Assembly: GCA_937958695.1 (NCBI GenBank)
Contig: CALGNK010000008.1
Coordinates: forward strand, 1-44,231
Length of the DNA: 44,231 nucleotides
Reading direction: 5' to 3'
Origin: an uncultured bacterium
GTDB lineage: Bacteria; DUMJ01
The translations under genes and the position numbers were made by a program. A model generated the notes under the pieces. That model saw nothing but the letters and a program-made list of their open reading frames with translations. It ran no database searches and was not told the origin of the DNA. How positions within the stretch are numbered: position 1 is the stretch's first letter; every line of letters starts with the position of its first letter. Below, piece by piece: positions 2,080 to 42,465 of this stretch.

Positions 2080-2257
2080 ATAAACCCTGCCATGTGCGAG
2101 TTGCGCAAGACGTGTTCCGAGCCAACACTCACACGTGGCGTGCCTAACTCCAAGGGTGGATTAGAGGCTTCGAAAGAAGCTTCATGAAGCCTTTGGGAGG
2201 GCACAAAAGTTGTTTCCGGGGTTCGGGAACAAAGCGCATACGGCATGGCGGGGTTTT
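2080..2257 (+). ncRNA. ssrS: 6S RNA
   Basis: About 178 nt closed by a terminal helix: AAACCCTGCCATG (from 2082) pairs with CATGGCGGGGTTT ending at 2256-2257. The 5' side contains GAGCC-A-A then CACGTGGCGTGCC, as in the conserved left arm of 6S RNA. The 3' side contains GGGTTCGGGAACAAAGCG and CGGCATGGCGGGG, matching the right arm. A distal hairpin is formed by AGGCTTC/GAAGCCT. 6S RNA mimics an open promoter and sequesters sigma-70-type RNA polymerase. The SD of the next gene starts directly after the terminal helix, so read-through could make one transcript with the rarA cluster. A link of 6S RNA genes with rarA is, as I recall, known in Gram-positive genomes. Confidence 0.85.
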
Positions 2258-2269
2258 AAGGAGATTTTT

Positions 2270-16916: not shown

Positions 16917-16946
16917 CTTTACTAGAGATAAATATAGAGGCCTTAA

Positions 16947-17115
16947 GCCTTCGGGGACGGGTGAGAAGCTTAAAAGGCTTCAATTCCCTACCGGCGGTAA
17001 AGCCCGCGAGCCTCTTAAGAGGCTGAACTGGTGAAATTCCAGTGCCGACGGTATAGTCCGGATGGGAGAAGGTGTTTTTTATTGGAATAATAAGCCCCGA
17101 AGGTTTTCGGGGCTT
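16947..17115 (+). promoter_or_regulatory. FMN riboswitch (RFN element) with switching hairpin
   Basis: All RFN signatures are present: CTTCGGGGACGGGTG, ACCGGCGGTAAAGCCCGCGA, TGGTGAAATTCCAG and GCCGACGGTATAGTCCGGAT. P1 is GCCTTC (16947-16952) with GAAGGT (17068-17073). Downstream, AAGCCCCGAA (17092-17101) pairs with TTCGGGGCTT (17106-17115) in a strong hairpin shortly before the ribU SD. CCCCGAAGG (17095-17103) is also an exact complement of CCTTCGGGG (16948-16956) in the aptamer, giving a ready two-state switch. FMN binding should repress ribU. Confidence 0.95.
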
Positions 17116-27436: not shown

Positions 27437-27511
27437 TGGCTGGGGCGGTAGGATTCGAACCTACGAATCTGGGATCCAAAGTCCCATGCCTTACCGCTTG
27501 GCCACGCCCCA
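27437..27511 (-). tRNA. tRNA-Gln (TTG anticodon)
   Basis: The minus strand folds into a 75-nt tRNA with CCA encoded at the 3' end. The acceptor is TGGGGCG/CGCCCCA, the anticodon loop is ACTTTGGAT (anticodon TTG, reading CAA/CAG), and the T arm has GGTTCGAATCC. It lies between spoVG and glmU and is probably cut out of the operon transcript. Confidence 0.97.
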
Positions 27512-37294: not shown

Positions 37295-37440
37295 TTAGCT
37301 TGCAGAAAAGGAATCTATTAATTTTTTGAAAGAAACTAGCTCTTTTAGAAATTTAGAGATATTTTTATCTAAATCCTATGCCCGAGCTTTAGACTTCGCC
37401 TAATTGATCACTAAGTGTTGAAACATTTCTGGAGACAAAT
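37295..37440 (-). pseudogene. Decayed C-terminal coding remnant after the MFS gene
   Basis: The MFS frame continues past its stop with two in-frame stops and then a helical, Lys-rich run ('DLDKNISKFLKELVSFKKL') to a third stop at 37295. The last codons of the MFS gene (NRDLSPEMFQHLVIN) do not fit an MFS helix. A deletion that fused the MFS gene to the tail of another gene would explain both. The identity of that tail is unknown. Confidence 0.4.
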
Positions 37441-38491
37441 CCCTATTAAGTCCAATGGATGCATTGTATAAGCCAAAAGCTGTTCCTCTTATATTTTCAC
37501 TAACTAAGTGTGTTACTAGGGATTTTGCTATTCCTTCGGTAGTAGAGTAATATATACCATAGACCATATATAAGATCCATATGTGCCATTGAGCATTAGC
37601 TAAAGCAAAGCCGATATAAGTAATAGCATATATAAACCATCCTAGCCTTATCACATTGACTCTTCCAATCTTATCCGATAGAATTCCGCTAGGTATAGAT
37701 AGAGCTGCGTAGAGAAGATTAAACATAGCTATAATTATCGGTATAATTGCAGGAGAGACACCAACATTTTCAGCTCTCAAGATTAGAAATGCATCGCTGC
37801 TATTGCCTAAGGTAAATATCAGCATAGTGATGAAAAATAGTAGAAATTTCCCTTTTAAAATAGATAGGTCTATCTTAAGGTCCGCCTGTAATTTTTCTTT
37901 TCCACTTTTTTCTACTACAAATAAAGAAACAAGCACTACAGCTATAAAAGCAACTACTCCTCCGATTATAAATATATTCCGATAACTTAATATCCTTGAT
38001 TGAGTAAATCTCATTAAAAGGTAAGCAGTTATTAGTGGTCCAACGAATGAACCTAAAGTATCTAATGCCCTTTGAAGTCCAAAAGAAAAGCCAGTTCTTT
38101 TCTTATTAGAAGATTCTGCAACTAAGGCATCTCTAGGTGCATCTTTTAATCCTTTCCCTACTCCATCAATCAACCTAACACTTAAAACACTGGCAGGACC
38201 TCTAGTAAAAAATAGTGAAATTCTCCCTATAGCAGATAATAGATATCCTAAAAAGACTATAGACTTCCTTTTTCTTAACTTATCAGATATAATCCCCGAT
38301 AGAATTTTGAATATACTTACTATAGTAGTTATACTGCCTTCAATAAGCCCTATCATACTTTTATTTAAACCTAAAATCTGCGAATAGAATGTTGGAAGGA
38401 TAGGACTTATCATATCTTGACTTAATCCACCAAAAAACGCCACCCATCCTAATACTACTACATTCCTATCTTTTTTATTATTCCCCTCCAT
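37400..38491 (-). CDS. MFS transporter, C-terminally truncated
   Basis: A 363-residue major facilitator with about ten transmembrane helices. The loop 2-3 signature is seen in 'GIISDKLRKRKS', and the segment 'DGVGKGLKDAPRDALVAE' is typical of a drug/metabolite MFS subgroup. The last recognisable part is 'GTAFGLYNASIGL'; helices 11 and 12 (about 40-50 residues) are missing and replaced by a 15-residue foreign tail, so it may be non-functional. It lies 2 bases after the zinc ribbon-HEAT gene, under the fluoride riboswitch. Confidence 0.85.
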   Translation of the reverse strand: MEGNNKKDRNVVVLGWVAFFGGLSQDMISPILPTFYSQILGLNKSMIGLIEGSITTIVSIFKILSGIISDKLRKRKSIVFLGYLLSAIGRISLFFTRGPASVLSVRLIDGVGKGLKDAPRDALVAESSNKKRTGFSFGLQRALDTLGSFVGPLITAYLLMRFTQSRILSYRNIFIIGGVVAFIAVVLVSLFVVEKSGKEKLQADLKIDLSILKGKFLLFFITMLIFTLGNSSDAFLILRAENVGVSPAIIPIIIAMFNLLYAALSIPSGILSDKIGRVNVIRLGWFIYAITYIGFALANAQWHIWILYMVYGIYYSTTEGIAKSLVTHLVSENIRGTAFGLYNASIGLNRDLSPEMFQHLVIN

Positions 38492-38493
38492 AG

Positions 38494-38898
38494 TTAAGAT
38501 TCTTCTCCCTCTCTATTTTTCAAGATTTTCTCCGCTTCAAATGCAGCCCTTCTTACCGTTACATATTGGTGTCCTTTGGCTTTTTCTATTAAGTCCAAAG
38601 CTCTTACCCCTTTAATCTTTGCTATTGCAATAACCGCTTCGGCAGCTATATAAGGGTCGCCTTCCTCTATACAAATGGATAAAGCATCTATAGCCTTAGG
38701 ATCTCCTATTTCTCCAAGAATATAGACCGCACTTCTAGCGGTAAAATAGTCATTAGACTTTAAGGCATTGATAAGTTTATCAAGATAAGTACCCTCCCTT
38801 TCCATTTTTTCTATGTCAGCTCCGCAATAGGGGCATATCTTTGTATCTTTAAGCACTTCTTCCCAGCAGTTCGGACAGAAATAACGTATCTTCTCCAT
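38494..38898 (-). CDS. Zinc ribbon plus HEAT-repeat protein
   Basis: A 134-residue protein. Residues 8-26 form a zinc ribbon from CPNC and CPYC knuckles. Residues about 40-125 are three helical HEAT/PBS-lyase-type repeats ('ARSAVYILGEIGDPKAIDAL', 'AAEAVIAIAKIKGVRALDLI', 'VRRAAFEAEKIL'). This is a protein-binding scaffold; no enzyme is implied. The SD is AGGAGG. It is the first gene after the fluoride riboswitch. Confidence 0.85.
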   Translation of the reverse strand: MEKIRYFCPNCWEEVLKDTKICPYCGADIEKMEREGTYLDKLINALKSNDYFTARSAVYILGEIGDPKAIDALSICIEEGDPYIAAEAVIAIAKIKGVRALDLIEKAKGHQYVTVRRAAFEAEKILKNREGEES

Positions 38899-38939
38899 AA
38901 TTCCGTCCCTCCTTTTACCATAATTAGCCTTTTCATATA

Positions 38940-39019
38940 AAAATAAAGCTCCTACTAGAATTTCTCCTAGTAGGAGCTATCAGCCTTACTTAAGGCAATC
39001 AGGCGAGCTCCATCGCCCT
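38940..39019 (-). promoter_or_regulatory. Fluoride riboswitch (crcB motif) with terminator
   Basis: The minus-strand RNA reads GGGCGATGGAGCTCGCC (39018 down), a hairpin GCC-TTAAGTAA-GGC, then TGATAGCTCCTACT, the crcB-motif layout. GGAGCT (39006-39011) pairs with AGCTCC to make the ligand-dependent pseudoknot. The same AGCTCCTACTAG (38967-38978) pairs with CTAGTAGGAGCT (38947-38958) in an intrinsic terminator followed by TTATTTTTAT. Fluoride binding should therefore block termination and turn the downstream genes on. Confidence 0.9.
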
Positions 39020-39025
39020 AAGAAA

Positions 39026-39054
39026 ATTATAATATTCTTTTATAGAAAATTCAA
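39026..39054 (-). promoter_or_regulatory. Promoter of the fluoride riboswitch operon
   Basis: On the minus strand, TTGAAT (39049-39054), 17 bases and TATAAT (39026-39031). The start is predicted near 39019, exactly at the aptamer's 5' end. Confidence 0.8.
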
Positions 39055-40331: not shown

Positions 40332-40653
40332 TTTACATCACCTCGTCCCTATATTTCAGTCATCCCAATATTTAAAATCTCAGTTAGTCATAGTATTTAT
40401 TATACCAGAAAGATAATCTTTTCCAATTTCTTCTTCCATCTAAAGATGATAGATCTTAATACCCCATAAGAAACTTAGGCTGGTAGTCTAGGCTACTAAG
40501 GGAAACCTGCTAGTTAGATATTTTCGGATTAGAGTACTCTTATCTTGAATATTCTGTAAGAAGGTCGATATTTATCTCTAATCGTTTCTATGTTAGAATT
40601 TTATCCAGAGCCTTAAGTGTTGGTAATGTTTATAAATTTTTGGAGAAATTAGT
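40332..40653. other. Gene-free region holding repeat copy 1
   Basis: There is no supported gene. It holds the 45-base repeat (40468-40512) and, at 40587-40598, ATGTTAGAATTT, a possible TGn-type -10 for the MNT gene at 40654. Confidence 0.4.
40468..40512 (+). repeat. 45-base structured repeat, copy 1
   Basis: AAGAAACTTAGG... to ...AAACCTGCTA, 44 of 45 bases identical to 41407-41451. It can fold: GTAG pairs with CTAC around a TCTAGG loop, and AGG with CCT outside. The two copies are in the same orientation and lie on either side of the second MNT/HEPN pair. Confidence 0.85.
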
Positions 40654-40950
40654 ATGATGTCTCTTGAGGAGATAAAAGGTATACTTGAAAAACATAAAGA
40701 GGAGATTAGAGAAAAATACGGAGTAGTAATAATTGGTATATTTGGTTCTTATGTAAGAGGTGAGCAGAAAGAGACAAGTGATATTGACATTTTAGTTGAG
40801 CTTGAAAAGCCTATCGGTTTTAAATACTTTGAATTGTGGGATGAACTTGAGAAGATATTGGGCTTACCGGTAGATATGCTTACTATAAAGGCGGTAAAAC
40901 AAAAGCCGTTACTATGGGAAAGTATAAAAGAGGATCTAATTTATGTCTAG
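40654..40950 (+). CDS. MNT-type nucleotidyltransferase (MntA-like antitoxin)
   Basis: A 98-residue minimal nucleotidyltransferase. The catalytic motif is canonical: GS-YVRGEQKETS-DID, i.e. GSX10DXD. The third Asp is expected in 'LPVDMLTI'. It should AMPylate and inactivate the HEPN partner encoded next, whose start overlaps it by 8 bases. The SD is TGGAGA. Confidence 0.9.
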   Translation: MMSLEEIKGILEKHKEEIREKYGVVIIGIFGSYVRGEQKETSDIDILVELEKPIGFKYFELWDELEKILGLPVDMLTIKAVKQKPLLWESIKEDLIYV

Positions 40951-41272
40951 ACGAAACTGGAAGCTATTCATCCTTGATATGTTGAATTGTATTGAAAAGA
41001 TTGAGAACTATACCTTAGATCTTTCATATGAGGATTTCATAAAAGATGAGAAAACAAAGGATGCAGTTATTAGAAACCTTGAAGTTTTAGGAGAAGCAGC
41101 TAATCAGGTCCCTAAAAATATACGAGAAAGTTATAAGGATATCCCTTGGCAACAAATTATAAGCATAAGAAATCGTTCACTTCATGGTTACTTTATTATT
41201 GATTATGATATTGTTTGGGGCATAGTAAATGAAGAGTTATATAACTTGAAAATAAAAATTAAAAAATCCTAA
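40943..41272 (+). CDS. HEPN-domain HepT-like toxin (DUF86)
   Basis: A 109-residue helical HEPN protein, likely an RNase. The RX4HXY motif is seen as RNRSLHGY, preceded by the DUF86 signature 'NLEVLGEAANQVP'. It is a different subtype from the toxin at 1538 (shorter, with the GEAA motif). It is paired with the overlapping MNT gene. Confidence 0.9.
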   Translation: MSRRNWKLFILDMLNCIEKIENYTLDLSYEDFIKDEKTKDAVIRNLEVLGEAANQVPKNIRESYKDIPWQQIISIRNRSLHGYFIIDYDIVWGIVNEELYNLKIKIKKS

Positions 41273-41365: not shown

Positions 41366-41570
41366 GTGCCGTAGGTTTCTGAGGGGTCTAGAAGACCTTA
41401 AACTCAAAGAAACTTAGGTTGGTAGTCTAGGCTACTAAGGGAAACCTGCTAAAGTTCTAGAAGTTATTCCAGAATTTAGTAAGGAGCCCAAAGGTAGATG
41501 GGCAAACCGCTTAAGGGACTTTGGGGCAGGTTTTCAGAGATTCGTTAGGGACCTACGGCTTATTGTTTTT
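41366..41570 (+). ncRNA. Candidate structured leader RNA, class not recognised
   Basis: About 205 nt closed by GCCGTAGGT (41368-41376) and ACCTACGGC (41551-41559), followed by TTATTGTTTTT. Inside are GGTCT/AGACC, the 45-base repeat hairpin, TTCTAGAA/TTCCAGAA, GCCC/GGGC and AAACC/GGTTT helices. It starts at a consensus promoter and is followed by a terminator and an SD-led gene, the layout of a riboswitch or other leader RNA. I found no match to T-box, cobalamin, lysine, c-di-AMP, tmRNA, RNase P or SRP signatures. Confidence 0.55.
41407..41451 (+). repeat. 45-base structured repeat, copy 2
   Basis: It differs from copy 1 at one base (AGGTT for AGGCT). The change lets AGGTT pair fully with AACCT, so this copy folds better. 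It lies within the candidate leader RNA. Confidence 0.85.
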
Positions 41571-41669: not shown

Positions 41670-42465
41670 ATGGATAGACTATTTGACAGGATCTATGGAT
41701 GTCTGGTTGGTGCTTTTGTTGGTTCTGCGTGATGAAGTATTGTATCGGGTTGTTGCAAGCGGAATACATCCTGCCTATGCGGGGTTATACACAGACTTTT
41801 TGGGAATAATCTCTTTTGCTAGGTCTTGTCATCCTATAGGTCTTATAAATGCCTGTAATCCAGAAGAGGCTTATAGAGATGTCTGGGATGTAGGAAGATT
41901 ATATCAGCCATTACATGGGGGAGGACTAGACTGGGCAGCTGTTGTTGCCTGTAGTATAGCCTATGCCATAAGACCTGATGCTACAGTTGATGGTGTTATT
42001 GATACTGCATTGAAATATGCTCCTAGGGATGGAAGATATAGGATAGAAAGGGCAATAGAGTTGGCAAAAGAAAGTAAAGATGCATTTGAACTCAGAGAAA
42101 AGTTTGATCCGATATATTCTGGTAAAGGCATAAGGTATAGCTTTAGTTGGGGTGAAGAGGTAGTTCCAAAAGGATTAGCGATATTTTATGTAACAAAGGG
42201 TAATTTAAAAGATGCCATTATAGCTGGGGTTAACTTTGGCAGAGATACAGACTGCTGTACCGCTATAGGCGCTGGTATAGCCGGGGCATTTTCAGGGGCT
42301 TCGGGTGTGCCTAGTGAATGGATAGAGCAAGTAGATAAGGCTACTAAGGAAAATGACTATACAGTATCCCAATTGACAATAAGAGAAAATGCTGAAGCTA
42401 TCTATAATGCCCTTATGAATGAAAAGAAGAAGTTGGAGTCTTATATAAGACTCTTAGAGAGTTAA
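41670..42465 (+). pseudogene. ADP-ribosylglycohydrolase family gene, broken
   Basis: A good SD and ATG 41670 give 'MDRLFDRIYGCLVGAFVGSA', a proper family N-terminus, but TGA follows at 41730. The family sequence resumes one base out of frame at 41731 with 'DEVLYRVVASGIHPAYAGLY' and runs to 42465, with 'HPIGLINACNP', 'GGGLDWAA' and 'GRDTDC' intact. The segment in between, with the N-terminal Mg-binding acidic motif of the family, is gone. An internal deletion with frameshift is the simplest reading. A shorter product from 41683 would lack the catalytic half. Confidence 0.8.

Follow-up and report, generated by a model that had tools for sequence, protein, structure and literature searches.

The window analyzed here, the whole 44,231-nucleotide stretch of contig CALGNK010000008.1 from an uncultured bacterium, encodes on its reverse strand a small protein composed of a zinc ribbon followed by HEAT repeats (ZnR-HEAT), which is very probably a genuine fluoride-regulon protein. 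Relatives of ZnR-HEAT lie, as it does, behind a fluoride riboswitch in several distant lineages, and hence ZnR-HEAT is likely to be an uncharacterized player in fluoride defense. For the unit as a whole we favor, as reasonably probable, the explanation that a fluoride ON switch would deliver ZnR-HEAT as the working product, a scaffold for a fluoride-sensitive enzyme, with the MFS protein encoded next to it being optional.

Results

A fluoride riboswitch precedes the ZnR-HEAT gene

The leader and the two-gene unit contain the following features, all on the reverse strand.

39026..39054, reverse strand: sigma-70 type promoter TTGAAT-17-TATAAT (scan, 10 of 12 consensus bases; a consensus match only)
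38964..39026, reverse strand: fluoride riboswitch aptamer (crcB motif, RF01734), found by cmscan and also recovered by the whole-genome search
39006..39011, reverse strand: pseudoknot 5' strand GGAGCU in an aptamer loop, complementary to 38978-38973
38973..38978, reverse strand: pseudoknot 3' strand AGCUCC, common to the terminator 5' arm (sequence)
38937..38978, reverse strand: intrinsic terminator, 14-pair stem 38978-38947 plus U-rich tail (terminator scan, stem energy and leader fold)
38906..38913, reverse strand: Shine-Dalgarno-like AGGAGGGA, 7 bases 5' of the ATG (direct sequence reading)
38494..38898, reverse strand: ZnR-HEAT protein, 134 aa (Pfam PF13240 and PF13646 over cut-off; AF2 model)
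37400..38491, reverse strand: MFS protein, 363 aa, shorter than its relatives at the C terminus (PF07690, MFS_1, 151 bits)

A preliminary description of this DNA had noted a consensus promoter, a crcB-motif aptamer and a terminator sharing the pseudoknot strand AGCTCC, and had proposed a covariance-model scan with the fluoride family. That scan placed RF01734 at 39026-38964 over the full model (1-64) with 39.7 bits and an E value of 1.2e-7, which exceeds the gathering score of 34 bits. The RNA itself belongs to a known class, the fluoride riboswitch. The promoter was also recovered and ends at the start of the RF01734 model (39054-39026), although the two promoter-like sites of the leader region against a shuffle mean of 0.8 are weak evidence when taken alone. 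As expected for RF01734, GGAGCU (39011-39006) is complementary to AGCUCC (38978-38973), and the latter forms the first part of the terminator 5' arm. The 14-pair stem has an energy of -22.3 kcal/mol when folded alone and is followed by the tail TTATTTTTAT. One terminator was found in the leader region versus a shuffle mean of 0.1, and the leader fold (z -4.5) was better than all 200 shuffles. As the terminator takes AGCUCC, it is predicted to be mutually exclusive with the aptamer. Such overlap of the terminator with the pseudoknot strand, and the resulting exclusion, are described for the fluoride riboswitch class in excerpts of PMC2864571 and PMC13273304. The window leader resembles the transcriptional type of RF01734 in having an aptamer above the gathering score and a terminator that overlaps the pseudoknot strand, and thus appears to be a fluoride ON switch of the ordinary transcriptional kind, a switch logic supported by the leader anatomy together with the riboswitch class.

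The source genome contains three fluoride riboswitches, two besides the window copy, which the preliminary description lacked. Comparison of six leaders of the genus, the window leader plus those of a DUF6062-crcB unit (three species) and a moxR-DUF58 unit (two species), showed that the aptamer and terminator are kept in all six. The pseudoknot covaries, being GGAGCU/AGCUCC in four leaders and GAAGUC/GACUUC in the two moxR leaders, where the 3' arm of the terminator changes along with it. These matched changes fit the published exclusion of aptamer and terminator.

The only CrcB match in the source genome spans two frames of one locus (L069, contig C37). The first part of this riboswitch-controlled crcB encodes 84 aa versus 122-125 aa in two sister species, a break that may be genuine or may stem from the assembly. 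The source genome gave no CLC match. A fluoride riboswitch also precedes the moxR-DUF58-transglutaminase-like operon in the source genome (L068), a sister species (L066) and the unrelated genome G194 (L133); AAA_3/MoxR was assigned by Pfam, and we take the other two genes to encode DUF58 and transglutaminase-like proteins.

The ZnR-HEAT protein

The small zinc ribbon-HEAT gene described earlier behind the aptamer was confirmed at 38898-38494, with both domains over the Pfam cut-offs; its protein match starts 78 nt downstream of RF01734 on the same strand. The ribbon (residues 8-25) scored 27.1 bits with PF13240 (cut-off 25) and the HEAT repeats (residues 39-121) scored 44.2 bits with HEAT_2, PF13646 (cut-off 27.7). 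Across both proteins of the unit, no families other than zinc ribbon, HEAT and MFS-type exceeded their cut-offs. The ribbon motif is CPNCW...CPYC, which has the family pattern of CPxC...CxxC with a tryptophan after the second cysteine, then HEAT repeats, and it would presumably bind zinc. A single-sequence AF2 prediction gave a hairpin ribbon followed by seven helices (pLDDT 86.6). Identity to the four relatives of alignment A2 was 27-34%.

ZnR-HEAT resembles HEAT_2/HEAT_PBS proteins and the designed alphaRep binders in its HEAT repeats and in profile matches to alphaRep chains, and differs from them in its N-terminal CPxCW zinc ribbon and its short stretch of seven helices. The best structural match (Z 7.5, rmsd 5.6 over 90 residues) was middling and indicates only the type of fold rather than function. 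A phycobilin lyase/NblB reading was rejected, the scores being far under the NCBIfam equivalog cut-offs (NblB 27.4 versus 300 bits, CpcF 23.8 versus 220).

ZnR-HEAT genes recur downstream of fluoride riboswitches

A search of 386 genomes with RF01734 gave matches in 81, of which 72 were over the cut-off. The sample of loci examined comprised 100 loci with 101 switch positions, nine weaker matches lying outside it, and linkage counts used 92 matches, ten loci with RF01734 under the gathering score being left out. Among the first open frames after the 101 switch positions, ZnR-HEAT relatives were present at three loci (L086, L100 and L136), and these plus the window protein gave profile A1. A separate scan of contigs gave only a ribbon protein, presumably of the ComF type, on a Hydrogenedentota contig (L064), and this was dropped as unrelated. 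Run on the 386 genomes, A1 listed eight full-length ribbon plus HEAT matches, five of which (the window, G099, G366, G130 and G236) lie on the same strand downstream of RF01734 at 78-6607 nt. Four of these five linked genes, all but that of G236, had built the profile, which makes this count circular and a fresh set the fair test. Three species of one genus (G379, G114 and G252) have a ribbon-HEAT protein that lacks the CPxCW tryptophan, and these had no RF01734 linkage. The window protein used as the sole query on 97 genomes gave mostly HEAT-only matches and proved too weak, and was superseded by the profile searches.

The fresh set came from a five-row profile, A2, run on the phylum of G236 (25 genomes, G236 included) and on 198 genomes of the phylum of G172, which gave 13 fresh full-length ZnR-HEAT genes chosen by protein alone. 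Rfam scans found RF01734 upstream on the same strand in seven (G463, G451, G586, G521, G425, G387 and G388). An eighth gene, that of G526, is followed by enolase, the switch, an antiporter and Usp, and thus lies inside the cluster rather than downstream of the switch. The remaining five (G492, G550, G440, G506 and G587) had no fluoride riboswitch in the region examined, even at E values up to 1, although in G440 that region offered only about 350 bases upstream of ZnR-HEAT before the contig end. Ten control regions of similar total length, those of seven HEAT-only proteins and three ribbon-HEAT proteins of one genus lacking the tryptophan, had no RF01734 match, and the difference (8/13 versus 0/10) gave a Fisher p value of 0.003. 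As G387 and G388 belong to the genus of G236, and G526 to that of G425, the counts overstate the number of independent events.

Upon counting all full-length members, 12 of 21 lie on the same strand downstream of a fluoride riboswitch. The tryptophan after the second cysteine is present in 17 of the 21, and linkage is 12/17 with it versus 0/4 without (p 0.02), a comparison that includes the members of the profile itself and hence is only suggestive. No new full-length member appeared in the phyla of G099 (4 genomes) and G130 (2 genomes), there was none in 40 genomes of the phylum of G302, and neither of the two other species of the window genus has a full-length copy.

The preliminary description had offered two options for the unit, the second being that the HEAT protein is an uncharacterized fluoride-stress factor that perhaps protects a metalloenzyme, and had proposed searching genomes for the aptamer upstream of its homologues. 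That search succeeded (7 of 13 fresh genes and none of the ten controls), and the recurrence in distant lineages supports a fluoride-stress factor, whose protective role would be a further step.

The MFS protein of the window is truncated relative to its relatives

The MFS carrier gene noted earlier (38491-37400, MFS_1 151 bits) begins two bases from the ZnR-HEAT gene, giving a two-gene unit. By family (PF07690) the protein resembles MFS transporters, from which it differs in the loss of C-terminal helices, a shortening absent from the preliminary description. Homologues align only to about residue 348-350 of 363, and three relatives are 389-399 aa long. The window copy thus misses about 45 C-terminal residues, roughly the last two helices, and is short of the full C-terminal half of a complete 12-helix transporter. 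No continuation of the family past residue 348-350 was found in the three frames, which rules out a simple frameshift. The protein is probably impaired and, given the missing helices, a role as a fluoride exporter, the first option of the preliminary description, is doubtful; that option is further weakened by the long branch of the window protein (1.32), which falls outside the riboswitch-linked clades of the MFS tree.

We also considered a reading in which the real cargo is the MFS protein, exporting fluoride or a counter-ion, and ZnR-HEAT is merely coupled to it. In accord with this, MFS homologues lie on the same strand within 8 kb downstream of RF01734 in 8 of the 121 genomes having a homologue at E<=1e-20, versus about 0.07 expected if genomes of 2.5 Mb and a reach of 8 kb are assumed, and MFS genes follow ZnR-HEAT in G099, G366, G451, G586 and G425 as they do in the window. 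However, the homologue is unlinked in the other 113 genomes, the window copy lacks its C-terminal residues, and the linked proteins are distributed over three or more clades of the tree, among which the window protein does not group. Moreover, ZnR-HEAT fluoride operons without an MFS gene in the stretch examined are found in G130, G236, G387, G388 and G521. We therefore consider the MFS protein improbable as the real cargo. The tree has open forks as well as one very long row (L161), and it marks L110, L151 and L161 as background though they come from riboswitch loci, so it supports only the statement that linked MFS proteins are spread over several clades. Such a spread implies no single transport function. 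MFS genes are truly recruited to the fluoride regulon, though not as one orthologous exporter.

The truncation and the long branch, together with the presence of full-length ZnR-HEAT in only one of three species of the genus, could instead point to decay of the unit, which would then be a fluoride cassette acquired by horizontal transfer, with its transporter already broken and its small protein not needed. Against this, the promoter, aptamer, pseudoknot, terminator and Shine-Dalgarno sequence are intact, as are the four cysteines and the HEAT core, and the ZnR-HEAT model is confident, and thus we think decay quite unlikely.

Gene neighborhoods and pairing with enolase

The neighbors of ZnR-HEAT genes were named partly from Pfam and partly by reading the sequence, and names not from Pfam are in part our assumption. 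A dynamin-like GTPase lies near ZnR-HEAT in G099, G366, G130 and G463; DUF6062 in G130, G521 and the unlinked G492; and an antiporter plus Usp in G463, G425 and G526. A membrane-bound hydrogenase/formate-hydrogenlyase-like operon and then a HAD phosphatase are found in G236, G387 and G388. In G586 the order is riboswitch, ZnR-HEAT, a prenyltransferase-like protein, CrcB, a protein we take to be DUF190, and MFS, and G451 has a frame pair similar to that of the prenyltransferase-like protein.

These varied neighbors, and the 5 of 13 fresh copies lacking a fluoride riboswitch, would suit a general stress or regulatory adaptor with no direct part in enzyme protection. It could serve, for example, the membrane hydrogenase, DUF6062 or the dynamin-like GTPase, and would have come under the fluoride switch together with many stress genes unrelated to it. 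The strong riboswitch association and two pairings with enolase instead favor a fluoride-specific job, and a general adaptor seems to us somewhat unlikely. In G526 the enolase frame overlaps the 3' end of ZnR-HEAT, and in G440 a single open frame of 572 aa encodes both, the Enolase_N and Enolase_C domains being complete. The G440 enolase also carries a GGAGG-ATG of its own, which may allow its separate translation. Excerpts of PMC11139923 and PMC5533749 describe enolase as fluoride sensitive and as a cargo of fluoride operons. The coupling of two relatives to this fluoride-sensitive magnesium enzyme also supports the notion of a fluoride-stress factor, which may protect such an enzyme.

Two neighbors recur at the switch loci themselves. 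The dynamin-like GTPase (about 600 aa) follows a fluoride riboswitch in 18 of 101 loci (for example L086, L100, L136, L090 and L129), a hint that the response to fluoride may include a membrane-stress arm; both GTPases tested had Pfam Dynamin_N. DUF6062 follows in 11 of 101 loci (L065, L067, L069, L087, L104, L120, L133, L136 and others) and in G521.

Other features of the window

2081-2258, forward strand: 6S RNA (50.5 bits)
16943-17077, forward strand: FMN riboswitch (107.9 bits)
27440-27511, reverse strand: tRNA

A 41-base direct repeat (40472-40512 and 41411-41451, forward strand), for which no match is expected by chance, occurs in two copies with one difference and flanks a nucleotidyltransferase/HepT pair (40654-41272). 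The ADP-ribosylglycohydrolase frame at 41683-42465 (forward strand) looks to be missing its N-terminal part, as it matches the Pfam model only from position 104 of 287.

Discussion

Fluoride riboswitches sense fluoride as a magnesium-fluoride complex. When fluoride is lacking, AGCUCC would be taken into the terminator and transcription would stop, whereas with fluoride the GGAGCU/AGCUCC pseudoknot would stabilize the aptamer, the terminator would not form and the ZnR-HEAT and MFS genes would be transcribed. This induction logic is well supported, and we infer that the source organism responds to fluoride accordingly. ZnR-HEAT would be the most likely working product, the face of its HEAT repeats binding a fluoride-sensitive partner enzyme that it would shield, assemble or tether during fluoride stress. 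Enolase is the best candidate for this partner owing to the gene order and the frame it shares with ZnR-HEAT. The MFS protein would be an optional second cargo, probably impaired in the source genome. Partner binding and protection are what we infer for ZnR-HEAT. That fluoride induces it to act as an adaptor for sensitive enzymes such as enolase is a tentative proposal, judged from gene arrangement to have less than an even chance. The broader idea, an undescribed family of fluoride-inducible chaperones or scaffolds that keeps enolase (elsewhere the membrane hydrogenase or other fluoride-sensitive enzymes) working, is doubtful at present.

The preliminary description held that the class normally controls crcB/Fluc or CLC-type genes. 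This was too narrow, since excerpts of PMC2864571 and PMC11139923 also give antiporters, enolase, pyrophosphatase and formate hydrogenlyase as cargo. The window unit, known from its sequence, departs from the usual RF01734 cargo, crcB or CLC-F, by carrying ZnR-HEAT and an MFS protein. The closest published likeness is an operon of six genes in Enterobacter cloacae FRM, ppaC-uspA-eno-gpmA-crcB-orf5249, in which, according to PMC5533749, one fluoride riboswitch drives several genes for stress proteins and fluoride-sensitive enzymes, enolase included. The evidence there came from knockouts, in contrast to the window unit, and neither the word HEAT nor the word MFS occurs in that paper. Titles and abstracts gave no pairing of the fluoride riboswitch with HEAT repeat, zinc ribbon, DUF6062, dynamin-like or MFS proteins, although ZnR-HEAT may already appear under a HEAT name in the gene list of Baker 2012. 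At this locus the ZnR-HEAT cargo is the new part.

The idea is cheap to test, since the inducer is given by the switch, the gene is small, and the enolase assay is simple, with known inhibition by fluoride. Known fluoride defense consists mainly of export, plus extra copies of the inhibited enzymes. If the proposal is true, bacteria would have a third strategy of fluoride defense, guarding the target enzyme besides pumping the ion out, and its agent would be a small metal-ribbon scaffold found repeatedly under the switch in distant lineages and coupled with enolase in two families.
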